Assembly: GCA_902796225.1 (NCBI GenBank)
Contig: CADBOO010000095.1
Span: forward strand, 1 to 43,560
Length of the DNA: 43,560 nucleotides
Reading direction: 5' to 3'
DNA from: an uncultured Ruminococcus sp.
Lineage (GTDB): Bacteria > Bacillota > Clostridia > Oscillospirales > Acutalibacteraceae
Of this stretch, positions 1 through 19,136 are shown piece after piece (the first letter of the stretch is position 1; every line of letters starts with the position of its first letter). The notes under the pieces are model-generated. The model was not told the origin of the DNA, did not search any database, and saw only the letters and a program-made list of their open reading frames with translations. Both the position numbers and the translations under genes were made by a program.

Positions 1-98
<98 letters not shown>

Positions 99-99
99 C

Positions 100-146
100 A
101 TCTGATAATGAGTTCTATTTCTATGTTAACCTTATCTGATAATGAG
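100..146. repeat. 13-bp direct repeat downstream of 5S rRNA
   Basis: The sequence atctgataatgag occurs at 100-112 and again at 134-146, between the 5S gene and its terminator. It may be a small duplication in the rRNA trailer or part of the processing region. No function can be read from it. Confidence 0.6.
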
Positions 147-283: not shown

Positions 284-2467
284 ATGAAGAAGATCATTTG
301 TATCATATTAACTGTGTTGATGTTGGTATCTGTTTCGGGTATATCGGTATCTGCCGCTCAGAAGTGGATTGCCGCGACCGGCGACGATTCCGGTACGACC
401 GGTGACTGTACATGGAAATACATCTCATCTGACAAGACAATGCGCATCTCCGGCCATGGAGCGATGGCGGATTATTCTGAAAAGAGTCAGCCTCCTTTTC
501 TGATGTATGATATCGAAACCATTATTATTGAAGACGGCGTCACGCATATCGGTGATCGATCGTTTGCGTATGCAACCTCCCTCAAACAACTTTCAATTGC
601 AGATTCCGTGAAATCCATCGGCGTGAGTGCTTTTGCGTTTTGTACCGGTCTGAGATCCCTGACGCTGCCGAAGAATCTGGAAACGATCGGAGAGGAAGCT
701 TTTTTCGGCTGTGATCGCATCGGCGGAGAGCTTGTGATTCCGGATAACGTCGAAGAAATCAGCAAGCAGGCTTTTCGCGCCTGCAAGAGCCTCAAAAAGC
801 TGACGCTTGGTGAAAAAACGGAGTTCGTTGACGAAGCCGCGTTTATGGATTGCTTTTTGCTTGAAAAAATCGATTGCAAAAACCTGATGACCATCTCGGA
901 TTATGGATTCAAAAACTGTCTGGAAATGCAGGAAGTCAATATCAGCAGCGTTCAGGTGATAGGCAAAGAGGCTTTTGCGAATAACTTGGTGTTGAGTATC
1001 GTCGAGACATCGCCCGATTTGTTTTTGGCGATGGGCGCTTTCAAGAACAGCCAAATCCAGGCGATCGTGTTCTTTTCGAGAATGTGCGTTCTGGAAAACG
1101 ATACGTTCGGAGCCGATTCGATACCGGAAAAGACAATAATCGTCGGCTACAAAGGATCCTCTGCCGAGCGGTATGCGACCAAATATAACAGAGAGTTTTA
1201 TGAGATGACCGACAACGATACCGTGATCAAAAAGGTGGAATTGAATGTCACCGATCCCGTAGCAGGCAAGAAGCCCTCTTATGAAGCGACTGTCCCTTCG
1301 GCTTATGCAAACCAATACCAGATCGACGATTTTTCCTTTGAGGACGGTACATGGACCCACGGCATCGCATGGTATGATACCACCGAAGGCAGACGCATCA
1401 CGCCCGATGAAACATTCAAGGGCGGTCATGCTTATGAGGTTTGTGCTTATCTGACTCCCAAACAGGGCTATCGCTTCTATTTCAGCCAGACCGGTACTGC
1501 AGGCGGAACGATCAACGGCAGGACGGCTAAGTTTGAATACAATAAACCCGATACCAGAAATCCCATGATCTTTTATGATTATGATGCGCTTGAGGTCACC
1601 TATACAGATCTCAGCGAGCTGAACCTCTCCCTGACGCCTCCCGCATTCCATGCGGCTCCTGCGACTGAGGCTCAGACAACTACCGAAGGAATCACTGTTT
1701 CCGGTGTCAGCTGGAGCGGATTGTCAGAGGGCGGGACTTTCGATGCGGATACCGCATATACCGCTACTGTCAGCGTAGCCGCAGAAGAAGGGTATCGCAT
1801 CACCGCTGATGCGACTGCTGAGATCAACGACGCGAACGCCGTTGTGAAGGTCGCCGAAGACGGCTTGACCGCTACTGTCAGCTATACGTTTGCACCGCTT
1901 GAGGATCCGCGTCAGGCGATCGGGAGTATCGCACTTACCGTTACCGCTCCTGCATCGGACGAAACGCCGATCGATCGGGCGCAGACCGATACCGACGGCG
2001 TCCGTATCGACGGCGTGAAATGGAGCGTTATCGAAAATGATACTCCCGTTCAGATGGAACAGGGCGCGGTGTTTGAAGCAGGCAAGGTATACGCGGTAAC
2101 CGTGACGGTCAGCGCGGATGATGATCACATCATCTCAGAGACATTGACTGCTTCTGTCAACGGTGAAAGCGCTTCTGTCGTGCCGGATGAAGATCTCGCA
2201 ACCTGCACCGTAACCTATACCTTCCCGGCGCTGCCGGATAAAACACCCGGCGCGCTGCTCGGGGACGTCGACGGCGACGGTGTCGTGAATATTTTCGACG
2301 CCTCGGCGATCCAGAAGCACATCGCGAGTATGCCTCTGCCAAGTTTCAATGATCAGGCGGCAGATGTTGACGGCGACGGAGTGATCACGATTTTTGACGC
2401 TTCGCTGATCCAGAAATATGTAGCAGGAACTCCGATCGCTTATCCGATCAATCAACCGCTTACGTGA
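284..2467 (+). CDS. Secreted leucine-rich-repeat protein with C-terminal dockerin
   Basis: A 727-residue secreted protein. Residues 1-24 form a signal peptide (MKKIICIILTVLML...). About residues 55-290 are BspA-type LRR_5 repeats, seen as recurring units such as IGDRSFAYATSLKQLSI, IGVSAFAFCTGLRSLTL and IGEEAFFGCDRIGGELVI. Two related Ig-like segments follow (about 430-530 and 535-640), each with a GVxWS core and a YxxTVxVxA strand. The last ~70 residues are a type I dockerin with two calcium loops, GDVDGDGVVNIFDASAIQKH and DVDGDGVITIFDASLIQKY. The dockerin implies non-covalent attachment to a cohesin-bearing scaffold; the LRR part is an adhesion or recognition fold, ligand unknown. ATG 284 was chosen over the in-frame GTG at 281 because AGGAGG (271-276) is 7 nt from the ATG. 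Domain assignment is firm; biological role is open. Confidence 0.9.
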   Translation: MKKIICIILTVLMLVSVSGISVSAAQKWIAATGDDSGTTGDCTWKYISSDKTMRISGHGAMADYSEKSQPPFLMYDIETIIIEDGVTHIGDRSFAYATSLKQLSIADSVKSIGVSAFAFCTGLRSLTLPKNLETIGEEAFFGCDRIGGELVIPDNVEEISKQAFRACKSLKKLTLGEKTEFVDEAAFMDCFLLEKIDCKNLMTISDYGFKNCLEMQEVNISSVQVIGKEAFANNLVLSIVETSPDLFLAMGAFKNSQIQAIVFFSRMCVLENDTFGADSIPEKTIIVGYKGSSAERYATKYNREFYEMTDNDTVIKKVELNVTDPVAGKKPSYEATVPSAYANQYQIDDFSFEDGTWTHGIAWYDTTEGRRITPDETFKGGHAYEVCAYLTPKQGYRFYFSQTGTAGGTINGRTAKFEYNKPDTRNPMIFYDYDALEVTYTDLSELNLSLTPPAFHAAPATEAQTTTEGITVSGVSWSGLSEGGTFDADTAYTATVSVAAEEGYRITADATAEINDANAVVKVAEDGLTATVSYTFAPLEDPRQAIGSIALTVTAPASDETPIDRAQTDTDGVRIDGVKWSVIENDTPVQMEQGAVFEAGKVYAVTVTVSADDDHIISETLTASVNGESASVVPDEDLATCTVTYTFPALPDKTPGALLGDVDGDGVVNIFDASAIQKHIASMPLPSFNDQAADVDGDGVITIFDASLIQKYVAGTPIAYPINQPLT

Positions 2468-8440: not shown

Positions 8441-8469
8441 TTGACTTTTACGCTTTAACGTGCTATAGT
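8441..8469 (+). promoter_or_regulatory. Promoter of the aromatic amino acid operon
   Basis: TTGACT at 8441-8446, 17-nt spacer, TATAGT at 8464-8469. Transcription from about 8476 would include the leader peptide gene and its attenuator before pheA. Confidence 0.8.
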
Positions 8470-8497
8470 AAATCTATCATGGAAAAGGAGCTTCGGC

Positions 8498-8605
8498 ATG
8501 TTTTTAGTATCGCACAATCAGACAACCCGATTTATCGATACCGACGCGCGCTTTTATGCGGGCTTTTATTGTTGTGCTCCTCAGAATCTGACTGTCCGTG
8601 TGTAA
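8498..8605 (+). CDS. Leader peptide of the aromatic operon (Phe/Tyr attenuator peptide)
   Basis: A 35-codon open frame with a good ribosome site: AAAAGGAG (8483-8490) 7 nt before ATG 8498. Residues 19-24 read FYAGFY, with two more Phe at positions 2 and 12, so 6 of 35 codons are Phe or Tyr (all TTT or TAT) and none is Trp. The peptide lies between a strong promoter and a Rho-independent terminator, immediately before genes that make Phe and Tyr. This is the layout of classical ribosome-mediated attenuation leaders such as E. coli pheL. Scarcity of charged tRNA-Phe or tRNA-Tyr would stall a ribosome at about 8552-8569. The peptide itself probably has no function. Peptide expression is inferred, not observed. 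Confidence 0.75.
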   Translation: MFLVSHNQTTRFIDTDARFYAGFYCCAPQNLTVRV

Positions 8606-8649
8606 CAGGCGCTGTAAGTGGATGATTTGCGGTTCTGTTTTTCGGACAG
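8592..8649 (+). promoter_or_regulatory. Antiterminator pairing of the Phe/Tyr attenuator
   Basis: ctgtccg at 8592-8598, inside the end of the leader-peptide frame, is exactly complementary to cggacag at 8643-8649, which covers the loop and 3' arm of the terminator. A ribosome stalled at the FYAGFY codons leaves 8592-8598 free to pair and prevents terminator formation. A ribosome reaching the stop codon at 8603-8605 covers it, so the terminator can form. Confidence 0.65.
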
Positions 8650-8663
8650 AACCGCTTTTGTTT
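8629..8663 (+). terminator. Attenuator terminator in the aromatic operon leader
   Basis: Perfect 10-bp stem gcggttctgt (8629-8638) / acagaaccgc (8646-8655) with a 7-nt loop and the tail TTTTGTTTG. It precedes pheA and has no gene ending before it except the leader peptide, so its role must be regulatory. Confidence 0.85.
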
Positions 8664-8722
8664 GTTAATTTTGTAAAGTGAAAAAGGGCTGCCGTGATGG
8701 TCAGCCGTAAAGGGGAATGGTT

Positions 8723-9835
8723 ATGGATGAACTGACAAAAGCGAGAGAAACGATCAATAAAACCGATGAAGAAATGGCGCGTCTGTTTGAAGATCGGATG
8801 CAGGCGGCAAAGATCATCGCGTCCTACAAAAAGGAGCACGGTCTGCCGATCTATGACGCGGCGCGCGAGCAGGCGGTCGTCGAGCGCAGCAAAGCGTTTA
8901 TCAAGGATCCGGAGATCGGCGCTTACTATACCCGGTTCCTCGGCGATATGATGGCGATCTCTAAGCAATACCAGGAGCGCCTTATCAGCGGCGAAAAGAT
9001 CGCTTACTGCGGTATCGAGGGCGCTTTTGCCAATATCGCCGCGACAAAGATCTTTCCGTACGGAAAGCGGATCTCGTATCGGGATTTCCGCAGCGCATAC
9101 GAAGCGGTGGAAAACGGCGAATGCGACTGCTGCGTCCTGCCGGTCGAGAACAGCTATGCCGGCGAGGTCGGCCAGGTGATGGACCTGATGTTCTACGGAT
9201 CGCTCTACGTCAACGGCATCTACACCCTGCGCATCGCCCAGCATCTGCTCGGCGTACCGGGCGCTTCTCTCAAAACGATCAAAACGGTCGTCAGCCATCC
9301 GCAGGCGCTGGCACAGTGCGCGGAGTATATCCGCAAAAGAGGGCTCAAGACCGTCGAATACACCAATACTGCCGCCGCTGCAAAAGCGGTGAAAGAGGCA
9401 GGCGATCCCACCGTTGCGGCGATCGCTTCGGTCGAGACCGCGCGTATCTACGGGTTGGAGCTCCTCGACCACGACATCAACGAAAGCGCGATGAATTCCA
9501 CCCGCTTTGCGGTATTCTCCCGTGCGGAGAACCGCAAGCTCAGCACGCCGGACGGCAACTTTATCCTGATGTTCACGGTCAAAAATGAAGTCGGCGCACT
9601 GGCGCAGGCGCTGAATGTTCTGGGCAGTTACGGATTCAATATGCGCGCGCTGAAATCCCGTCCGATGAAGGATCTCGCGTGGCAGTACTATTTTTACATC
9701 GAAGCAGAAGGCGACGAGACCGGCCGCAACGGCGCGGATATGCTCAAGCATATCTCCCTGCATTGCGACAGGCTGAAGGTCGTCGGTCATTATAGCGAAG
9801 AAGTATTATTGGAAGATGGTGAAATGTATGTCTGA
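8723..9835 (+). CDS. pheA: Bifunctional chorismate mutase / prephenate dehydratase (P-protein)
   Basis: A 370-residue cytoplasmic enzyme that converts chorismate to prephenate and then to phenylpyruvate, the Phe branch. Residues 1-90 are an AroQ-type helical chorismate mutase (ARETINKTDEEMARLFEDRM, KIIASYKKEHGLPIYDAARE). Residues ~95-270 are the prephenate dehydratase, with YCGIEGAFANIAATKIF, VLPVENSYAGEVGQVMDLM and the diagnostic NSTRFAVFSR. The C-terminal ACT domain (GALAQALNVLGSYGFNMRAL, KSRPMK) is the usual Phe-binding feedback site. ATG 8723 is used rather than ATG 8717 because AAAGGGG (8709-8715) is 7 nt from the former. It is first structural gene after the attenuator and overlaps aroB by 8 nt. 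Confidence 0.95.
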   Translation: MDELTKARETINKTDEEMARLFEDRMQAAKIIASYKKEHGLPIYDAAREQAVVERSKAFIKDPEIGAYYTRFLGDMMAISKQYQERLISGEKIAYCGIEGAFANIAATKIFPYGKRISYRDFRSAYEAVENGECDCCVLPVENSYAGEVGQVMDLMFYGSLYVNGIYTLRIAQHLLGVPGASLKTIKTVVSHPQALAQCAEYIRKRGLKTVEYTNTAAAAKAVKEAGDPTVAAIASVETARIYGLELLDHDINESAMNSTRFAVFSRAENRKLSTPDGNFILMFTVKNEVGALAQALNVLGSYGFNMRALKSRPMKDLAWQYYFYIEAEGDETGRNGADMLKHISLHCDRLKVVGHYSEEVLLEDGEMYV

Positions 9836-10853
9836 CAGCAAAGTATTGAGAATGGAGCTGGGCGAGAACAGCTATGATATCGTTATCGAGCGCGGCGCGC
9901 TGAAACGCGTCGGCGAGCTGTTTGATCTCAACCGCAAGGTGATGATCGTCACCGACGACGGCGTACCCGAGGAGTATGCCGATACGGCCGCGGATTTTGC
10001 CGCGGAAAGCACCGTTTTTACGGTGCCGCAGGGCGAGACCAGCAAGGAACTGGGATGGATGCGCGCGATCCTGACAAAGATGCTCGAGCGCGAATTCACG
10101 CGCCGTGACTGCGTTGTTGCGGTCGGCGGCGGCGTGGTCGGCGATCTCGCGGGATTTGTCGCGTCAACCTATATGCGCGGCGTCGATTTTTACAGCATCC
10201 CGACGACCGTTTTGTCCCAGCTGGACTCCTCGATCGGCGGCAAAAACGGCGTCAACCTCAACGATATCAAAAACATGGTCGGTACCTTCTATCAGCCGAA
10301 GAAGGTCGTGATCGATCTCGATCTGCTGAACACCCTGACGACCCGCCAGATCTGCAACGGCCTTGCAGAAGCGGTCAAAGCGGGGCTTACCTCTGACAAA
10401 GAGCTGTTCGAGATATTTGAAACCGGCAACGTAGCCGCGCATATCGACGAGATCGTTCTGCGTGCGCTTTTGGTTAAAAAGAGCGTTGTCGAGCAGGATG
10501 AGAAAGAAACCGGTCTGAGAAGGATCCTTAACTTCGGACATACCATCGGTCATGCGATCGAAAGCTTTGAGCATCTCAACGGATTGTATCACGGCGAATG
10601 CGTTGCGCTGGGAATGATCCCCATGGTCAGCGACGAACTGCGTCCGCGCCTTTTGAAGGTGCTGGAAACCATCCATCTGCCTACCGAGATCGATCTGGAC
10701 GTCGACGCGGTCGCCGAAGTGCTGATCCACGATAAAAAGATCCAGGGCAATTCCGTTATCTGTACCGTTGTCAACGAGCCGGGACAATTTGAAATGAAAA
10801 CCATTCCGTTCGGCGATTTTGCCCCGCTGATCGAGATGGTCAAAAAGCAGTAA
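9828..10853 (+). CDS. aroB: 3-dehydroquinate synthase
   Basis: A 341-residue NAD- and zinc-dependent enzyme for the second shikimate step (DAHP to 3-dehydroquinate). Visible motifs are VAVGGGVVGDLAGFVASTY, IPTTVLSQLDSSIGGKNGVN, GLAEAVKAGL (metal-binding Glu), NFGHTIGHAIE and YHGECVALGM (metal-binding His). Length is normal for the family. The frame also contains ATG 9816, but ATG 9828 has GGTGA at the right distance and fits the family N-terminus better. It overlaps the end of pheA by 8 nt and ends 1 nt before aroC, indicating translational coupling. Confidence 0.96.
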   Translation: MSDSKVLRMELGENSYDIVIERGALKRVGELFDLNRKVMIVTDDGVPEEYADTAADFAAESTVFTVPQGETSKELGWMRAILTKMLEREFTRRDCVVAVGGGVVGDLAGFVASTYMRGVDFYSIPTTVLSQLDSSIGGKNGVNLNDIKNMVGTFYQPKKVVIDLDLLNTLTTRQICNGLAEAVKAGLTSDKELFEIFETGNVAAHIDEIVLRALLVKKSVVEQDEKETGLRRILNFGHTIGHAIESFEHLNGLYHGECVALGMIPMVSDELRPRLLKVLETIHLPTEIDLDVDAVAEVLIHDKKIQGNSVICTVVNEPGQFEMKTIPFGDFAPLIEMVKKQ

Positions 10854-10854
10854 G

Positions 10855-11946
10855 ATGAAGAATACTTTCGGAAGCAATCTTGCTCTGACGCTGTTCGGAG
10901 AAAGCCACGGCGAGATGATCGGCGCGGTACTGGACGGTATTGCGCCGGGAATCGTGATTGACGATGCGTATATCCGCGCGCAGCTGAGTCTGCGCAGACC
11001 TGCGGGGAAGATCTCCACCGCACGGCGCGAAGCGGATGAATACCGCATCGTCAGCGGCGTTTTTGAGGGCAAGACCACCGGCACGCCCCTGACGATCCTG
11101 ATCCCGAACACCTCTCAGCACAGCAAGGATTATTCCGCGACCCGCGCCTTGGCGCGTCCGGGACACGCGGATTATACCGCCTACGCGAAATACCACGGCT
11201 TTGAAGACTGGCGCGGCGGCGGACATTTTTCTGGCAGGGTCACCGCGGCATTGGTCGCGGCGGGCGCGATCGTGTTATCTGCGCTCAAGCAGAAGGGCAT
11301 TCTCATCGGCACGCATATCGCGTCCTGCGCAGGGATTACGGACAGGGAGTTTGACGATCTCAGCAAAGAGATCCCCGCGCTGAATGAAAAGGCATTCGCA
11401 GTCCTCGACGACAGCAGGGGCGCAGAAATGCGCGAGGCGATCGAAGCGGCTGCTGCGGACGGCGATTCGGTCGGCGGCGTGCTGCAGACGGCGATCCTCG
11501 GCGTCCCCGCAGGCGTCGGCGAGCCGTGGTTCGATACCGTCGAGGGCGTATTATCTCATGCGCTGTTCAGCATTCCCGCGATCAAAGGCGTTCAGTTCGG
11601 CGACGCGTTTGCGATGGTCAACGGCAGAGGAAGCGAATATAATGATAGCTATTATATTTCTGATGAAGAAATAAAAACCGTCACCAACCATAACGGCGGT
11701 ATCAACGGCGGCATCACCAACGGTATGCCGATCATCTTCTCCTGCGCGGTCAAGCCCACTCCGTCGATCTTCAAAGCGCAGAAGACCGTCGATTTCTTCG
11801 GCAGGAACGACGCCGTACTGGAGCTGAAGGGCAGACATGACCCCGCGATCATCCACCGCGCAAGGGTCGTCGTCGACAGCGTTGCGGCTTTGGCGATCGC
11901 CGATTTGCTCGTGACAAGATTCGGAACAGACTATTTTATGAATTAG
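10855..11946 (+). CDS. aroC: Chorismate synthase
   Basis: A 363-residue FMN-dependent lyase for the last shikimate step (EPSP to chorismate). Motifs: NLALTLFGESHGEMIGAVLD with the conserved His of GESHG, LSLRRPAGKISTARRE, ALARPGHADYTAYAKY with the second catalytic His, RGGGHFSGRVTAALVAAGAI, GDSVGGVLQTAILGVPAGVG and ELKGRHDPAIIHRARVV near the C-terminus. It starts 1 nt after the aroB stop. A 52-nt gap follows before aroE-aroK; it contains only a weak ggtcag/ctgacc symmetry. Confidence 0.96.
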   Translation: MKNTFGSNLALTLFGESHGEMIGAVLDGIAPGIVIDDAYIRAQLSLRRPAGKISTARREADEYRIVSGVFEGKTTGTPLTILIPNTSQHSKDYSATRALARPGHADYTAYAKYHGFEDWRGGGHFSGRVTAALVAAGAIVLSALKQKGILIGTHIASCAGITDREFDDLSKEIPALNEKAFAVLDDSRGAEMREAIEAAAADGDSVGGVLQTAILGVPAGVGEPWFDTVEGVLSHALFSIPAIKGVQFGDAFAMVNGRGSEYNDSYYISDEEIKTVTNHNGGINGGITNGMPIIFSCAVKPTPSIFKAQKTVDFFGRNDAVLELKGRHDPAIIHRARVVVDSVAALAIADLLVTRFGTDYFMN

Positions 11947-11998
11947 ACATGGTCAGGTAATGTTTCAGACGGAACACTGACCACTCATCACTGACATT

Positions 11999-13231
11999 AT
12001 GGACTACGGATTGATAGGCGAGAGGCTGCCCCATAGCTTCTCCAAAGAAATACATGAAAAGATAGCCGATTATCAATATTCTTTATTAGAATTAAAACCC
12101 GATGAGGTCGAGCGTTTTATTCTTTCAAAGAATTTTAAAGCGATCAACGTTACGATCCCCTACAAGCAGACGGTCATCCCGTACCTTGACGAGATCGCGC
12201 CCGAAGCGCAGGCAATCGGCGCTGTGAACACCGTCGTCAACCGCGGCGGCGTTCTCTATGGGTACAACACCGATTTCGGCGGGATGCGCGCGCTGATCGA
12301 ACGCACCGAGGTCGACCTGAAATATAAAAAAGCGCTGATCCTCGGCACCGGCGGCACTTCGCGCACGGCAAAAGCGGTCTGCGAGCGTCTGGGCGCAAAG
12401 GAGATCCTGCGCGTCAGCCGCAGCGGTCGGGAGGACTCGATCACCTACGAGCAGGCGTATGCCGATCATGCCGACGCGGACGTCATCATCAACACTACCC
12501 CCTGCGGGATGTTTCCGGACATATTTGATCATCCGATCGATCCCGGCAGGTTCCCGAACCTGTCCGGTGTGATCGACGCGGTATACAATCCGCTGAATAC
12601 CGAACTCGTGCTGCAAGCCCGCGATCGCGGACTGAACGCGTCGGGCGGGCTGTATATGCTGGTCGCACAGGCGGTACTGGCGGCTGAGTACTTTATGGAT
12701 AAAGAGCTGGACGCCGTCAAGCTGACCAACGAGATTTATGACGAGATATATTTCTCTAAAAGAAATATAGTCCTGTCCGGTATGCCCGGTTGCGGCAAAT
12801 CCACTGTCGGCAGGATCGTCGCCCGACAGCTCGGCAGGGATTTCATCGACACCGACGCGCTGATCGTAGAACGGGCGGGAGAGATCAAACGGATCTTTGC
12901 CGAACACGGTGAAGCGTATTTCCGCGACCTTGAGACCGAGGTGATCAAGGAGCTCGCGCCCGAGGGCGGCAAGGTCATCTCTCTCGGCGGCGGCGCGATC
13001 CTGCGTGACGGGAATGTCGACGCTCTGCGACGCAACGGCGAGATCTTTTTCATCGATCGTGCGCCTGAATCCCTGATCCCCACCGACGACCGACCCCTTG
13101 CCGATGAAAAGGCAAAGATCACGGCGCTGTATGAGCAGCGGATCGACCGGTATATGGCGACCGCCGACTATATCATCGACGGCGACTGCGACCCCGAAGA
13201 CGTCGCCGACAGCATCATCAACGGAGAATAA
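11999..13231 (+). CDS. aroE-aroK: Shikimate dehydrogenase-shikimate kinase fusion (AroE-AroK)
   Basis: A 410-residue fusion of two consecutive shikimate-pathway enzymes. Residues 1-~250 are AroE: GLIGERLPHSFSKEIH at the N-terminus, INVTIPYKQ with the catalytic Lys, GAVNTVVN, GYNTDFGGMRALI with the catalytic Asp, ILGTGGTSRTAKAV as the NADP loop and GGLYMLVAQA. After a short linker, residues ~257-410 are AroK: Walker A SGMPGCGKSTVGR, FIDTDALIVE, YFRDLETEVIKEL, ISLGGGAIL and the LID segment DDRPLADEK. There is no internal stop or frameshift and all key residues are present, so both activities are expected. No strong ribosome site precedes ATG 11999, so translation may rely on coupling or a weak site. 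Confidence 0.94.
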   Translation: MDYGLIGERLPHSFSKEIHEKIADYQYSLLELKPDEVERFILSKNFKAINVTIPYKQTVIPYLDEIAPEAQAIGAVNTVVNRGGVLYGYNTDFGGMRALIERTEVDLKYKKALILGTGGTSRTAKAVCERLGAKEILRVSRSGREDSITYEQAYADHADADVIINTTPCGMFPDIFDHPIDPGRFPNLSGVIDAVYNPLNTELVLQARDRGLNASGGLYMLVAQAVLAAEYFMDKELDAVKLTNEIYDEIYFSKRNIVLSGMPGCGKSTVGRIVARQLGRDFIDTDALIVERAGEIKRIFAEHGEAYFRDLETEVIKELAPEGGKVISLGGGAILRDGNVDALRRNGEIFFIDRAPESLIPTDDRPLADEKAKITALYEQRIDRYMATADYIIDGDCDPEDVADSIINGE

Positions 13232-13239
13232 CAGACACA

Positions 13240-13341
13240 GTCATTGCGGGGCTTTTCTGAAAGCCGCGGCAATCCCCCTGTCGATCCGACCGGTTCAAAA
13301 GGAAGGGGATTGGCGTCGGGACAGATCTACCCCGGAATGAC
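13240..13341. repeat. MITE-like palindromic intergenic element inside the aro operon
   Basis: A ~100-bp element fills the aroE-aroK to aroQ gap. Its ends form imperfect 12-bp terminal inverted repeats: gtcattgcgggg (13240-13251) and ccccggaatgac (13330-13341), 11 of 12 matching. Internal inverted pairs include ggctttt/aaagcc near 13250-13265 and caatcccc/ggggattg. The GTCATTGC...GCAATCCCC style resembles widespread bacterial intergenic palindromic repeats. It would be transcribed within the operon and fold strongly. Confidence 0.65.
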
Positions 13342-13360
13342 ATTGTTTTTGGAGCAACAT

Positions 13361-13789
13361 ATGAGAATCTTAGTTATCAACGGCCCGAATCTGAATATGC
13401 TCGGTATCCGCGAACCGGAGCTCTACGGCCGTGTCACGTATCGGGATCTGTGCGATATGATCCTTGAATACGCACTGAAAAAGAATATCGAAATCGAATT
13501 GTACCAGAGCAACCACGAAGGCGATCTGGTCGACAAAATACAGGAAGCGTACGGCGAGATCGACGGCATCGTCATCAATCCCGGCGCCTATACCCATACC
13601 AGCGTCGCCATCCTCGACGCGCTGAAAGCGGTGCAGATCCCCGCTGTCGAGGTCCATATCTCCGATGTGGACGCGCGTGAGGAATTCCGCCGGATCAGCT
13701 ACATCCGCGCCTATTGCAGGGCGACGATCAGCGGCCGCGGGGTACAAGGGTATCTCGACGCGATCGACCTGCTGAAAAACGGTGACTGA
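13361..13789 (+). CDS. aroQ: Type II 3-dehydroquinate dehydratase
   Basis: A 142-residue enzyme of the dodecameric type II dehydroquinase family (3-dehydroquinate to 3-dehydroshikimate). Motifs: LVINGPNLNMLGIREPELYG with the active-site loop and Tyr, YQSNHEGDLVDKIQEAYG, VINPGAYTHTSVAILDAL and VEVHISDVDAREEFRRISY with the catalytic His. The frame is open further upstream through the MITE-like element, but ATG 13361 with GGAG 6 nt before it gives exactly the family length. The stop codon lies 1 nt before the aroA start. Confidence 0.95.
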   Translation: MRILVINGPNLNMLGIREPELYGRVTYRDLCDMILEYALKKNIEIELYQSNHEGDLVDKIQEAYGEIDGIVINPGAYTHTSVAILDALKAVQIPAVEVHISDVDAREEFRRISYIRAYCRATISGRGVQGYLDAIDLLKNGD

Positions 13790-13790
13790 C

Positions 13791-15008
13791 GTGAACGCGA
13801 CCATCTATCCGTCGAAAGCGCACGGCGTCGTTACTGCTCCGCCGAGCAAAAGCATGGCGCATCGCCTGCTGATCTGCGCGGGACTGAGCAGGGGAGAGAG
13901 CGTCGTTCGCAATCTTGCGTATTCCAATGACGTCGAGGCGACGATCGCCTGTCTGCGTGCCTTAGGCGCACGGATCGATCTTGACGGCGATACGGCGACT
14001 GTAAACGGCGTCGATATCCGCGACGCGATCGGCAAGACAGCCGTCCTGCCCTGTAACGAATGCGGCAGTACCCTGCGATTCTTTATCCCGATCTGCCTGC
14101 TCTGCGGCGAAGAACGCGTCCTGACCGGCTCCGGGTATCTGCTGAATCGCCCGCTTAGCGTATATGAAGAAATCGCGGCAGAGCAAAAACTGCGGTTCGA
14201 AAAAACAACCGGCCGACTGACCGTGTGCGGCAGACTGCACAGCGGCGTATATGAGGTCGCGGGCAATATCAGCTCCCAGTTTATATCGGGGCTGCTGTTC
14301 GCACTGCCGCTGCTCGACGGCGACAGCGAGATCCGTCTGATCCCGCCCGTCGAAAGCAGACCGTATATCAATATGACCGTCAGCGCCCTGCGTGATTTCG
14401 GGCTCGAGATCACCGAAAGCGGCGATTCCTATTTTGTCAAAGGCGGTCAAAGCTACAGTCCTGCGGATATCACCGTCGAGGGCGACTGCTCCAACGCCGC
14501 ATTTTTTGAGGCGCTGAATGCAGCCGGCTCATCGGTCGCCGTCGAAGGGCTTCGCGCGGATTCTCTGCAGGGCGACAGGATCTATAAAATTCTTTTCGAG
14601 AATATTAAATCCAAAAAAACACCGATTGATATCGCCGATTGTCCCGATCTGGGACCGGTATTGTTCGCGGTAGCGGCATTGTACGGCGGCGCTGCATTCA
14701 CCGGCACGCGACGGCTGCGGATCAAGGAAAGCGACCGTGCCGCGGCGATGCAAACAGAGCTGAAAAAGCTCGGCATAGACATGACGATCGGGGAGAACGA
14801 CGCCGTTGTGCATCAGGGCAGGCTCCATGCCCCGTCAGAACCGCTCGACGGTCACAACGACCACCGTATCGTGATGGCGCTGTCCGTGCTTTTGACCGTC
14901 ACCGGTGGGGTGATCCTCGGCGCGGAAGCGGTCAATAAAAGCTTCCCCGATTTCTTCGATAAACTGAAAGACGCAGGAGTAAATTGTACCTATGGAATGG
15001 ATAAGTAA
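13791..15008 (+). CDS. aroA: 3-phosphoshikimate 1-carboxyvinyltransferase (EPSP synthase)
   Basis: A 405-residue enzyme joining shikimate-3-phosphate and phosphoenolpyruvate. Visible landmarks: TAPPSKSMAHRLLICAGLS, NECGSTLRFFIP, GSGYLLNRPLSVYEEI, NISSQFISGLLFALPLL, VEGDCSNAAFFEALN, ADCPDLGPVLFAVAAL, RLRIKESDRAAAMQTEL and DGHNDHRIVMALSV. The loop that reads GNAGTAMRP in E. coli is ECGSTLRF here: Gly96 and Arg100 are kept, while positions 97, 98 and 101 differ. The start is taken as GTG 13791, since GGTGA is 5 nt upstream; GTG 13782 is in frame but has no ribosome site. The last 17 nt overlap tyrA. Confidence 0.95.
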   Translation: MNATIYPSKAHGVVTAPPSKSMAHRLLICAGLSRGESVVRNLAYSNDVEATIACLRALGARIDLDGDTATVNGVDIRDAIGKTAVLPCNECGSTLRFFIPICLLCGEERVLTGSGYLLNRPLSVYEEIAAEQKLRFEKTTGRLTVCGRLHSGVYEVAGNISSQFISGLLFALPLLDGDSEIRLIPPVESRPYINMTVSALRDFGLEITESGDSYFVKGGQSYSPADITVEGDCSNAAFFEALNAAGSSVAVEGLRADSLQGDRIYKILFENIKSKKTPIDIADCPDLGPVLFAVAALYGGAAFTGTRRLRIKESDRAAAMQTELKKLGIDMTIGENDAVVHQGRLHAPSEPLDGHNDHRIVMALSVLLTVTGGVILGAEAVNKSFPDFFDKLKDAGVNCTYGMDK

Positions 15009-15855
15009 TTCAAGAATATTGATCGTCGGCTTGGGACTGATCGGCGGCAGCTATGCCCGCGCCTTAAAGCGTCTGGGCTACCATGTCACCGCGATCGACA
15101 CACGCAAAGAAGCGATCGACTACGCCCTCGAAAACCATATCATCAACGACGGCTCGACCGAGGTCGACGAAGCGGTCGTATCCTCTGCGGACGCGATCAT
15201 CTTCGGCTTGTATCCGAAGGTATTCGTGAACTGGATCGAGCAGTACCAGCAGTATTTCAAGCCCGGCGCGATGCTGACAGACGTCACCGGCGTCAAGAGC
15301 TGTGTGGTCTATGATATCCAGAATATGCTGAGGGACGACGTCGAATTCATCGGATCCCATCCGATGGCTGGGCGCGAGGTCTACGGCGTCGAGAATTCCG
15401 ACGACGGCATCTTCCGCGGCGCGAACTTCATCATCACGCCGACCGAAAAAAACACGGCAAAAGCGATCAGATGGATCGGCTCGCTGGGCAGGATCCTCGG
15501 CTTTTCACGCATCTCCGTCCTCTCGCCAGAAGAGCACGACGAGATGATCGGCTACCTCTCTCAGCTGACCCACTGTATCGCGGTCGCGCTGATGACCTGC
15601 TCCGACAACGAGCATCTGGTCGATTACACCGGCGACAGCTTCCGCGACCTGACCCGCATCGCGAACATCAACGACCTGATGTGGAGCGAACTGTTCATGC
15701 TCAACCGCGACTCGCTGCTCAAATACATGGATATTTTTCTCGACGAATTCGCCTCGCTGCGCGATATGATCCGCGACGGCAAAGTCGACGAGCTGCGCGA
15801 AAAAATGCGCCTGAGCACGAAGCGGCGCGCATACTTTAATAAAGTGAAGAACTAA
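14992..15855 (+). CDS. tyrA: Prephenate dehydrogenase
   Basis: A 287-residue NAD-dependent enzyme converting prephenate to 4-hydroxyphenylpyruvate, the Tyr branch. The Rossmann loop is ILIVGLGLIGGSYARAL; the active-site region is FIGSHPMAGREVYGVEN with the conserved HPMAG; YLSQLTHCIAVALM and the Arg-rich DSFRDLTRIANIN are also typical. There is no ACT domain, so feedback by Tyr would have to act elsewhere, for instance at the leader. It overlaps aroA by 17 nt. The final codons (GTG AAG AAC TAA) belong to a dispersed repeat that starts at 15844, so the repeat supplies the natural stop codon. Confidence 0.95.
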   Translation: MEWISNSRILIVGLGLIGGSYARALKRLGYHVTAIDTRKEAIDYALENHIINDGSTEVDEAVVSSADAIIFGLYPKVFVNWIEQYQQYFKPGAMLTDVTGVKSCVVYDIQNMLRDDVEFIGSHPMAGREVYGVENSDDGIFRGANFIITPTEKNTAKAIRWIGSLGRILGFSRISVLSPEEHDEMIGYLSQLTHCIAVALMTCSDNEHLVDYTGDSFRDLTRIANINDLMWSELFMLNRDSLLKYMDIFLDEFASLRDMIRDGKVDELREKMRLSTKRRAYFNKVKN

Positions 15856-15897
15856 GAGTGAAGAGCTGCGGGAGGGCTTCGCCCTCACCCGATTCCT
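15844..15897. repeat. Dispersed intergenic repeat, copy 1 (overlaps end of tyrA)
   Basis: The segment from gtgaagaacta through gattcct contains a small hairpin gagggc-ttc-gccctc. A second copy with few substitutions and an extra ~14 nt occurs at 36993-37060, directly after glyA. In both places the element begins at the very end of a coding gene. Confidence 0.75.
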
Positions 15898-15923
15898 TTT
15901 GGCTTTTCAGGAAGGTGTAATAT

Positions 15924-16958
15924 ATGAATATGAACTTGGAATTCACCAAACGACTGACCATCCCGATGGAAGTCAAAAAAATGTATCCCCTCGACGATGA
16001 ACTCATCGATCTGGTGGAACAGCGCGACAAAGAACTCAAAGACATTTTTGCGGGACGTGACGACCGCATCGTGCTGATCATCGGTCCGTGTTCGGCGGAC
16101 AAAGAGGACAGCGTACTGGACTATATCTGCCGCCTGAGAAAGGTGCAGGACAAGGTCGCCGATAAGATCTTCATCGTTCCGCGCATCTATACCAATAAGC
16201 CCCGCACCACCGGTTCGGGATATAAGGGGATGCTCCATCAGCCCGATCCCAACAAAAAGCCCGATATGTTCAAGGGCATCGTCGCGATCCGCTCGATGCA
16301 CATCCGCGCGCTCAGGGAAACCGGTTTTTCCTGCGCGGACGAAATGCTCTATCCCGAAAACCACCGCTATCTGGACGATATTCTCGCCTACGTCGCGGTC
16401 GGCGCCAGATCGGTGGAAAACCAGCAGCATCGTCTGGTCGCGTCCGGCGTCGACGTTCCCGTCGGCATGAAAAACCCCACCGGCGGCGATCTGAGCGTCA
16501 TGATGAATTCCATCACCGCGGCGCAGAAGGGGCATACCTTCCTCTATCGCGGATGGGAGGTGCATTCGCAGGGCAATCCGTATGCCCATGCGATCCTGCG
16601 CGGCTATATGAACAAGCACGGCGAAAGCCTGCCGAATTACCATTTTGAGGACATCATGCATCTGGTGAGGCTCTATGCCGCGGGAATGTTCAAAAATCCT
16701 GCCTGTATCATCGATACCAATCACAGCAATTCCGGCAAGAATCCCTTTGAACAGCCGCGTATCATCAAAGAGGTCATGGACGCGCGGCGCTATGACAGCG
16801 AGATCCGCCGCCTCGTCAAAGGCTTCATGGTCGAAAGCTACATCGAGGACGGCTGTCAGAGCGTCGACGGCGGCGTCTACGGCAAGTCGATCACCGACCC
16901 CTGCCTCGGTTGGGAAAAGACCGAGCGCCTGATTCTCGAACTGGCGGACATGGCATAG
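15924..16958 (+). CDS. aroF: 3-deoxy-7-phosphoheptulonate synthase (DAHP synthase, class I)
   Basis: A 344-residue class I (E. coli AroF/G/H-type) DAHP synthase, the entry step of the shikimate pathway (PEP plus erythrose-4-phosphate). Motifs: LIIGPCSADKEDSVLDY, VPRIYTNKPRTTGSGYKG, GARSVENQQHRLVASGVDVP, VGMKNPTGGDLSVMMNSI, CIIDTNHSNSGKNP and the C-terminal YGKSITDPCLGWE. The N-terminal ~45 residues correspond to the arm that carries feedback regulation in this class; the specific inhibitor cannot be told. AGGAAGGTG lies 6 nt before ATG 15924. Last gene of the operon, 68 nt after tyrA across the dispersed repeat, and followed by a strong terminator. The symbol is generic for the isozyme family. 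Confidence 0.94.
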   Translation: MNMNLEFTKRLTIPMEVKKMYPLDDELIDLVEQRDKELKDIFAGRDDRIVLIIGPCSADKEDSVLDYICRLRKVQDKVADKIFIVPRIYTNKPRTTGSGYKGMLHQPDPNKKPDMFKGIVAIRSMHIRALRETGFSCADEMLYPENHRYLDDILAYVAVGARSVENQQHRLVASGVDVPVGMKNPTGGDLSVMMNSITAAQKGHTFLYRGWEVHSQGNPYAHAILRGYMNKHGESLPNYHFEDIMHLVRLYAAGMFKNPACIIDTNHSNSGKNPFEQPRIIKEVMDARRYDSEIRRLVKGFMVESYIEDGCQSVDGGVYGKSITDPCLGWEKTERLILELADMA

Positions 16959-16990
16959 CCGATCCGAAAACAAAATAACCGATCAATGAG

Positions 16991-17020
16991 AAGTTGCATA
17001 TTCGTATGCAACTTTTTTTA
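16991..17020 (+). terminator. Terminator of the aromatic operon
   Basis: Perfect 10-bp stem aagttgcata / tatgcaactt closed by a ttcg tetraloop (17001-17004) and followed by a T-run. It ends the nine-gene aromatic operon. Confidence 0.92.
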
Positions 17021-17980: not shown

Positions 17981-18214
17981 ATGAGAAAACACATCAAAAT
18001 CTCCGATTGGCTTAAGGCCGCCCTGATACGCGCTGTCAGAACCTTTGCCCAGACTGCCGCCGCCATGATCGGCGTCGCGGCGCTGATGAGCGAGGTCAGC
18101 TGGGCAGAGGTACTCTCGGCGTCGCTGCTCTCGGCGATCCTGTCGATCCTGATGAGCGTCGGCGGCCTGCCCGAAGCAAAGGACAGTGAATCATTTGGCA
18201 ACTTCGGCCGATAA
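17981..18214 (+). CDS. r1t-type phage holin
   Basis: A 77-residue membrane protein with a helical core, RTFAQTAAAMIGVAALMSEV then SWAEVLSASLLSAILSILMS, followed by VGGLPEAKDS. The FAQTA...VSWxxVLSAxxLxAxxSxLxSxxGLPE pattern is characteristic of the r1t holin family, which permeabilises the membrane so that the endolysin can reach the wall. GGAGTGAGG lies just before ATG 17981. The next gene starts inside its last 29 nt, the usual holin-endolysin arrangement. Confidence 0.82.
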   Translation: MRKHIKISDWLKAALIRAVRTFAQTAAAMIGVAALMSEVSWAEVLSASLLSAILSILMSVGGLPEAKDSESFGNFGR

Positions 18215-19136
18215 GATCATTCAGATAGCCCGCGCCCAGATCGGGGTAAAGGCTACCGATATCAAGAAGTGTAAATACAACACATGGTACTATGGCGGCG
18301 TCGTATCCGGCAGCGGATACGACTGGTGTGTCACCTTCGTCCAGTGGGTGTTCAACGAAGCGGGCGCACGCTCGCTGCTCTATACAAAAACCGCCAACTG
18401 CGGCGTTCAGGCAAAGGCTTTTCAGGACAGAAAACGCCTTGTCACCTCCGGATTCAAAAAAGGCGACGTTGTTTTCTTCCACTGGAGCAACGAGCCGTCT
18501 GCCATGGTTCCCGGAACCTATGTCAGCGACCATGTCGGGGTCGTCGAAAAGGTCAATTCCGACGGTACGCTGACGACAATCGAGGGCAACACCGGCTCGT
18601 CCTATAACGGCGAGGTCATGCGCCGCGTACGTTCGCTGAGCGTAGTATCCTGTGCCGGCAGACCGGATTATTCGGGATCCTCGGCGCCTGTGACGGATAT
18701 ACCCCCGCACATGCTGTACCGCGTCCGCGCGGGTGGCAAATGGTACCCGGAGGTCAGCGATCTGAGCGATTACGCCGGCGTTATCGGAAAACCGATCACC
18801 GACGTTGCGATGAAAGCGACCGCCGGAAGGGTGCGATATCGCGTGCATCTCAAGGGCGGCAAATGGCTGCCGTATGTCAGCGGATATAATATCTCCGATC
18901 ACGCGAACGGTTATGCCGGCACCGGCAGACAGATCGACGCGGTGGAGATCTACTATGATACGCCCGCCGATATCGTCAAAGAGAGGGGATACTATAAGGC
19001 GAAATACCGTGTATCTCCGACCTCGGGCGGCTATTATCCGTGGCAGTATGACAACGAAACGTCGTCCGGTCAGGATGGATACGCCGGCGTTTTCGGAAGA
19101 ACCGTCGACAGGCTGCAGGTCACTCTCTCAAAATAA
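18186..19136 (+). CDS. CHAP-domain endolysin with C-terminal ChW-like wall-binding repeats
   Basis: A 316-residue peptidoglycan hydrolase. Residues ~5-160 are an amidase/endopeptidase CHAP domain: YDWCVTFVQWVF with catalytic Cys48, VSDHVGVVEKV with His116 and TIEGNTGSSYNGEV with the Glu/Asn pair. The C-terminal half holds three imperfect Tyr/Trp/Gly-rich repeats (YRVRAGGKWYPEVSD, YRVHLKGGKWLPYVS, YRVSPTSGGYYPWQY), each ending in a DYAG/GYAG turn, similar in style to ChW wall-binding repeats. The start is uncertain: GTG 18186 has AAAGGA only 2 nt away, while TTG 18195 has it 11 nt away. There is no signal peptide, in line with export by the adjacent holin. Confidence 0.85.
   Translation: MNHLATSADKIIQIARAQIGVKATDIKKCKYNTWYYGGVVSGSGYDWCVTFVQWVFNEAGARSLLYTKTANCGVQAKAFQDRKRLVTSGFKKGDVVFFHWSNEPSAMVPGTYVSDHVGVVEKVNSDGTLTTIEGNTGSSYNGEVMRRVRSLSVVSCAGRPDYSGSSAPVTDIPPHMLYRVRAGGKWYPEVSDLSDYAGVIGKPITDVAMKATAGRVRYRVHLKGGKWLPYVSGYNISDHANGYAGTGRQIDAVEIYYDTPADIVKERGYYKAKYRVSPTSGGYYPWQYDNETSSGQDGYAGVFGRTVDRLQVTLSK

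Follow-up and report, generated by a model that had tools for sequence, protein, structure and literature searches.

The window (the whole 43,560-nt stretch of DNA analyzed) contains an eight-gene operon predicted to produce chorismate, Phe and Tyr, and this operon is preceded by a leader that, judging from its sequence and modeled folds, is very probably a ribosome-mediated transcription attenuator. Phe is likely sensed by the leader, and interchange between Phe and Tyr codons suggests that Tyr may be sensed as well. The leader seems to be a new, undescribed sequence family of a known type of switch.

With respect to its parts, all of which lie on the forward strand, the element opens with a sigma-70-type promoter (8441–8469; TTGACT-17-TATAGT) that matches 10 of 12 consensus positions and has an extended −10 with TG before it. 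A similar promoter precedes the leader in the relatives displayed. Behind the promoter, a Shine–Dalgarno sequence (AAGGAG, 8485–8490) serves a putative leader peptide ORF of 35 codons plus stop, running from the ATG at 8498 to the TAA at 8605 and conserved across 24 aligned rows. The 35-residue peptide, MFLVSHNQTTRFIDTDARFYAGFYCCAPQNLTVRV, has six Phe/Tyr codons (F2, F12, F19, Y20, F23 and Y24). An intrinsic terminator (8629–8663; stem 8629–8655, T-rich tail to 8663) lies between the leader and the first gene, and the 3′ arm of this terminator overlaps CGGACAG (region 3, 8643–8649), the 3′ strand of an antiterminator whose 5′ strand is CTGTCCG (region 2, 8592–8598). The complementarity of these two strands is exact over 7 nt. 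Promoter, leader, terminator and antiterminator were thus all located where the initial annotation had placed them, although the antiterminator in fact exceeds seven pairs, as AACAG (8604–8608) is able to pair with CTGTT (8635–8639) and adds an inner helix. Region 1 (GCGGGC, 8558–8563), which was absent from that annotation, comprises the Ala21–Gly22 codons, and its bases 8559–8563 could pair with region 2 as a protector (1:2) helix.

Known RNA models did not account for the element. Specifically, no Rfam family scored above threshold at the leader, the sole above-threshold match in the window being a 5S rRNA, and none of the three sub-threshold matches near the leader (E 4.4 to 5) was an amino-acid leader. 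The T-box model likewise had no match in the window upstream of the operon, and no known RNA families were matched in the pheA loci of 20 relatives. A partial 5S rRNA occupies window positions 1–100, at the contig end.

Individually, the promoter and terminator signals hardly differ from chance in this region: between 8200 and 8900 on both strands, 2 promoter-like sites compare with 1.3 per shuffle, and a single terminator-like site with 0.9. Such counts would suit a region without a regulator, in which a constitutive promoter happens to have a fortuitous small ORF and a partial terminator as neighbors. We nonetheless consider that explanation extremely unlikely, as the element is conserved in 30 genomes, its spacing and alternative pairing are kept, and a scan of relatives is specific for Phe/Tyr (see below). 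What raises the attenuator as a whole above chance is its conservation.

The operon behind the leader, with ORFs named by NCBIfam and Pfam and all on the forward strand, starts with pheA (chorismate mutase–prephenate dehydratase, 8717–9835), for which ATG 8723 may be the start, relatives mostly aligning from residue 2 or 3. It continues with aroB (3-dehydroquinate synthase, 9816–10853), aroC (chorismate synthase, 10855–11946), an aroE–aroK fusion (shikimate dehydrogenase and shikimate kinase, residues 3–249 and 255–408; 11999–13231), aroQ (type II 3-dehydroquinate dehydratase, 13244–13789), aroA (EPSP synthase, 13782–15008), tyrA (prephenate dehydrogenase, 14992–15855) and a DAHP synthase of the AroF/G/H type (15924–16958). 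The fusion reduces to eight ORFs what had been counted at first as nine genes from pheA to the DAHP synthase. Homology in aroQ begins at residue 38, and its true start is therefore probably downstream of 13244. Apart from gaps of 52 nt (11947–11998) and 68 nt (15856–15923), the ORFs are adjacent or overlapping and would be transcribed as a single unit; a terminator-like hairpin with a T-run (16988–17017) lies behind them. A pattern scan of the operon returned 15 further terminator-like sites, with a shuffle mean of 8.0 for the whole region. The same eight genes follow the leader in the same order at 13 of 14 clade loci, the contig of the remaining one (L040) ending after aroC. A GGGAGGGCTTCGCCCTCACCCGATT palindrome is found at 15870–15894, between tyrA and the DAHP synthase gene, and elements resembling it lie between leader and pheA in L012, L036, L041 and L052. 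Behind the operon, 17981–19136 encodes a holin-like small membrane protein (assigned by eye) and a CHAP-domain protein, a pair that looks like a phage-derived lysis cassette.

In terms of conservation, 93 of 100 genomes drawn from the genus had a PheA match, and these relatives fall into two groups, 21 (including the window) having at least 56% identity and the rest 32–39%. Named genomes supplied a second set of 80 loci, and many of these genomes were metagenome assemblies from rumen or gut that carry the label Ruminococcus or Clostridia. Our alignment comprises 24 distinct leaders, all from loci with PheA at 60% identity or more; loci omitted at this level were L015 and L016 (contig ends), L020 (no leader found), L045 (upstream region reads as coding) and seven duplicates, and L011, whose leader the Shine–Dalgarno filter missed, was entered by hand. 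In L020 (G058), a promoter of this type runs directly into a short terminator-like hairpin, a leader being absent, and pheA is split across two contigs.

The 24 aligned leaders share the core FxFARFYAGFY and are enriched in conserved codons for end products of the pathway, with F/Y making up 212 of 767 residues. The Arg, Ala and Gly of the core are present in 24/24. Counting from the Ala of Ala–Gly, position −2 is F in 22/24 (otherwise C or W), whereas positions −1 (Tyr 18, Phe 6) and +2 are F or Y in every leader. The window leader is poorer in F/Y than those of its relatives, with Asp at −7 and −5, where most relatives have aromatics. Mapped on the pheA tree, five aromatic columns underwent 15 changes, 4 of them crossing between aromatic and non-aromatic, so that at least 11 of 15 remain aromatic; across all seven aromatic columns there were 28 changes, with 13 crossing and 15 remaining aromatic. 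Binomial probabilities are 1.9e-6 (11 of 15) and 8.8e-6 (15 of 28) at a null of 1/6 that is assumed, the five-column set having been picked after inspection of the data. A single-base missense change turns a Phe or Tyr codon into another aromatic codon in only one of six to eight cases, so the meaning of the leader codons is under selection.

Whether both amino acids are read is less certain than the attenuator itself. The same attenuator could respond to Phe as the one limiting amino acid, with the Tyr codons as tolerated spacers, and we regard this as a real possibility that falls somewhat short of an even chance. It agrees with the position of pheA as the first gene of the operon and with the greater abundance of Phe, which predominates in five of the seven aromatic columns, as well as with the Corynebacterium glutamicum aroR leader, which, according to a review, responds to Phe limitation and not to Tyr (PMC11802643). 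The preference for Tyr over Phe at column −1 (18 against 6 of 24), where four changes on the tree include none to a non-aromatic residue, and the presence of tyrA within the operon speak against it. That the leader controls the operon by reading both Phe and Tyr, as had been proposed initially, is therefore upheld with regard to attenuation, whereas what points to Tyr is codon interchange, and aroR as described in that review is insensitive to Tyr.

A second reading of the conserved core deserves mention, as arrest peptides that sense an amino acid are known, TnaC sensing Trp being one. RFYAGFY could by analogy be a nascent-chain arrest peptide that detects a free aromatic amino acid within the ribosome, which would explain why R, A and G are fixed in 24/24 alongside F/Y. 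However, the Ala–Gly codons coincide with region 1 GCGGGC, and RNA pairing can explain their constancy (GCG in 24/24, GGC in 23/24); moreover, L081 and L086 have K in place of R yet keep GCG GGC. We thus view arrest as very unlikely, and attenuation by a translating ribosome as the preferred reading.

Attenuation finds further support in RNA pairing. Across the 24 rows, every terminator cell that has a letter on each side is paired (100%), as are 89.3% of the cells of the seven-pair antiterminator. Failures of the latter are concentrated in its two outer pairs, which fail in 9 and 8 rows; the five inner pairs are all formed in 23/24 rows, with a single failing cell. Sliding the antiterminator partner by 1–3 columns reduces pairing to 31–44%. 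Conservation of the Phe/Tyr codons and of both stems in relatives, a check that the initial annotation had called for, is therefore borne out in the 24 aligned leaders, with 23/24 for the antiterminator core. It had also called for covarying stems, and here the outcome is divided. At one inner antiterminator pair, three rows (the window, L003 and L033) have U-A and the other 21 have C-G, a two-sided change that may be one event because the three U-A rows form a single clade on the pheA tree. The shuffle control is mixed as well: none of 500 shuffles reaches the observed number of paired cells, of cells with a two-sided change, or the covariation score, whereas 160 reach the number of pairs with a two-sided change and 486 the number of further pair types. 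The helix between region 1 (CGGGC) and region 2 is paired in 99% of cells with no two-sided changes, and RNAalifold prefers another fold, in which region 1 forms a local hairpin with CGCGC just upstream.

The spacing of these elements is consistent with a switch operated by a ribosome. Codon 24 in window numbering (codon +3, Y24) begins 22–27 nt before the region 2 core, and in 16 rows this distance is 27 nt. In seven rows, window included, the stop codon begins 9 nt past the first base of the region 2 core; in the other 17 it begins 4–6 nt ahead of the core. Both placements cover region 2 if a ribosome footprint from −15 to +12 is assumed. Predicted folds agree in the window: for 8582–8663, which includes region 2, the minimum-energy fold is the antiterminator with AACAG:CTGTT, the centroid being the terminator, and for 8600–8663, which lacks region 2, the minimum-energy fold is the terminator. 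In a ribosome scan that assumes a leading edge 12 nt from the first base of the A-site codon, the window is predicted to form the antiterminator with A-site codons 1 and 13–29 and the terminator with codons 2–12 and 30 to the stop. Stalling at F19, Y20, F23 or Y24 would accordingly yield the antiterminator in this model, whereas stalling at F2 or F12 would not. The proposal that a stall at codons 19–24 frees region 2 and that finishing the peptide covers it thus agrees with the folding model, given the assumed ribosome edge.

Across all aligned rows, the window included, the RNA running from region 2 through region 3 is predicted to form at least four of the five core antiterminator pairs in 24/24, with region positions taken from the alignment. 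In the full-length RNA, the antiterminator is predicted to be more stable than the terminator in 12/24 rows only, and equilibrium energies are in this sense mixed. The ribosome scan of relatives is also mixed, with L007, L009, L014, L040 and L052, for example, giving the terminator at every position, and region 2 misplaced in L005, L018 and L035. Given these full-length energies and terminator-only relatives, the switch has to operate on RNA that folds as it is being transcribed, as known attenuators do.

We propose the following mechanism. RNA polymerase would start at the 8441–8469 promoter, with a ribosome following on the leader ORF. When charged tRNA-Phe and tRNA-Tyr are plentiful, the ribosome would reach the stop codon and cover region 2, such that the 8629–8655 terminator forms and transcription stops before pheA. 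When Phe-tRNA, and probably Tyr-tRNA, is scarce, the ribosome would instead stall within FYAGFY at codons 19–24 and leave region 2 free to pair with region 3, joined by the inner AACAG:CTGTT helix, whereupon the terminator would not form and the eight genes would be transcribed. If the leader were untranslated, region 1 could take up region 2, and termination would be expected.

The main control might alternatively lie with a protein that binds DNA at the promoter, the leader having a secondary role. The promoter spacer contains a conserved CTTTAAYGTG, and this stretch is almost identical among aligned rows and recurs in some relatives before genes that by eye resemble parts of amino-acid transporters. 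In the window's own genome, however, there is a single exact copy of the motif, and allowing one mismatch gives 7 sites versus 8 for a reversed control; such a protein would also leave the leader unexplained. This arrangement is, in our estimation, improbable. As an observation in itself, the promoter stretch CTTTAAYGTGYTA (window 8453–8465) is strongly conserved and recurs before transporter-like genes in L271, L276, L282 and L283.

Turning to the distribution of the attenuator, a model built on the 24 leaders (R1) matched 30 of 161 genus genomes with E below 1e-30, at one site each. Of these, 24 carry rows of the model, the window's own genome included and L003, L004, L019, L033 and L038 being assigned by coordinates, and six are new (G044, G102, G107, G108, G137 and G154). 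A further 28 places with E from 1e-30 to 0.01 lie outside this count; three were inspected, of which the one in G149 proved to be a Phe/Tyr leader. Of eight new or re-found loci that were checked, pheA comes directly after the leader in seven, and at the eighth, in G044, the contig stops at the terminator. Among 200 genomes sampled from the family, the best R1 match besides the window was in G246 (E 1e-13), where the leader MRKAGFSYWFTYVRFYAGYFFGTQNTAAART lies ahead of pheA–aroB, and the next was in G282 (1.3e-6), where a Phe/Tyr leader precedes DAHP synthase–aroB–aroA–aroC–pheA. A search for leader plus terminator in 102 pheA upstream regions gave 34 Phe/Tyr leaders, versus 0 to 7 for nine other amino-acid pairs that were unmatched for amino-acid frequency, with the window and L009 themselves below its thresholds.

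Diverged leaders extend beyond the reach of R1. PheA was found at E up to 1e-40 in 109 of 160 family genomes, and 28 of the 109, the window included, carry the aro-operon type (at least 48% identity). Our survey scanned these 28 and found a diverged Phe/Tyr leader upstream in 16, again including the window, with terminators judged by eye. Within the 16, the leader stands before a DAHP synthase gene preceding pheA in four and before another pheA-preceding gene in others. ORF hits in L209 and L232 were discarded by eye as spurious. A second operon layout consists of DAHP synthase (Bacillus subtilis type), tyrA, aroB, aroA, aroC and pheA, and a Phe/Tyr leader precedes its DAHP synthase gene in 4 of 20 stretches (L259–L262), many of the stretches ending short of the operon head. 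A second leader family, FYFYYF..GCP/DCP, lies before aro operons in L214, L223, L225, L226, L229, L078, L079, L101 and others, and in several of these leaders the (D/G)CP codons are nearly complementary to CGGACAGTCC ahead of the terminator. Antiterminators were also sought by longest complement in 26 leaders belonging to other families, and clear strands emerged in few, such as GGACTGTCC:GGACAGTCC in L214. Upstream of pheA in L021, L022 and L224, no Phe/Tyr leader was found; a GTTAAC-type palindrome behind the promoter suggests a DNA-binding repressor there instead.

The leaders may also reach outside the aro genes. In G149, G119 and G075 (L162, L169 and L170), a gene resembling paaK, with the PaaK model as best hit at a score under that model's curated cut-off, comes after an FSFTF.FT.F...RV.LLC leader and terminator (leader at 1116–1205, forward strand, in L162), and in G033 the same type of leader precedes a DAHP synthase gene (L259, 1149–1232, reverse strand). 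No such leader was found in the remaining 27 of the 30 paaK loci read, and the sequence motif of an iorB-like neighbor (by eye) occurs in 25 of those 27. Five loci scanned for a Phe/Tyr leader before iorA-like genes linked to paaK had none. Synthesis of phenylalanine from phenylacetate by rumen bacteria is an old observation. If the association is real, phenylacetate activation would join the same Phe-starvation regulon and be marked as a route to Phe, and a leader in common with a phenylacetate-CoA ligase-like gene makes use of phenylacetate for phenylalanine in these bacteria testable. Taken together, the surveys raise the prospect, which we hold to be evenly balanced, that throughout this family of Clostridia from gut and rumen the genes for shikimate, Phe and Tyr synthesis are governed mostly by Phe/Tyr leaders that diverge quickly, and not by T-boxes. 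This reading takes in at least four leader families (by eye) on two aro layouts, one family being shared between a DAHP synthase gene (one genome) and a gene resembling phenylacetate-CoA ligase (three other genomes). These leaders would offer a ready natural set of Phe/Tyr sensors for rumen and gut bacteria.

Leader-peptide attenuation of aromatic amino-acid synthesis is an enterobacterial textbook case, and the aromatic genes of Firmicutes are usually described as controlled by T-boxes, TRAP or repressors. In the literature searched, from which subscription papers were mostly absent so that the absence is a weak one, such leaders were undescribed in Clostridia. T-box riboswitches respond to uncharged tRNA, whereas the window leader would be read by a ribosome. 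The window's genome has eight T-box matches on other contigs, five of them over the cut-off; one match lies before pheS, and one that falls below the cut-off lies before a TrpB-like gene. Leader-peptide and T-box strategies thus coexist in this genome, divided by gene. As for known leaders, the Escherichia coli pheA attenuator has a known structure, Phe-only codons and a single gene behind it, and the C. glutamicum aroR leader was reportedly described by Neshat et al. in 2014.

According to the review, E. coli pheA is controlled through the leader peptide PheL (pheL) by charged tRNA-Phe (PMC11802643), and the present leader resembles it in having a leader peptide, probable tRNA-Phe control and a chorismate mutase–prephenate dehydratase gene behind it. 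It differs from E. coli pheA in its Phe and Tyr codons, eight-gene operon, Clostridia host and lack of an Rfam leader match. The Acholeplasma uORFC-13-1 motif (24 representatives) also combines a candidate leader ORF, with at least one Phe codon, and a terminator with an aro gene behind, although it is located before aroF and the accessible part of its description does not mention Tyr codons (PMC8632094). The closest parallel in kind is aroR, which the same review describes as a Phe-Tyr-Phe leader before the aroF operon, responsive to Phe limitation and unaffected by Tyr availability (PMC11802643). The suggestion that mixed Phe/Tyr control of a complete shikimate operon may be undescribed accordingly stands for this lineage within the literature searched, whereas the kind of leader is known, with aroR as its precedent. 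Like the present leader, aroR is a mixed Phe/Tyr leader before an operon containing DAHP synthase; unlike it, aroR belongs to Actinobacteria and is described there as unaffected by Tyr, the likeness between the two being one of description.
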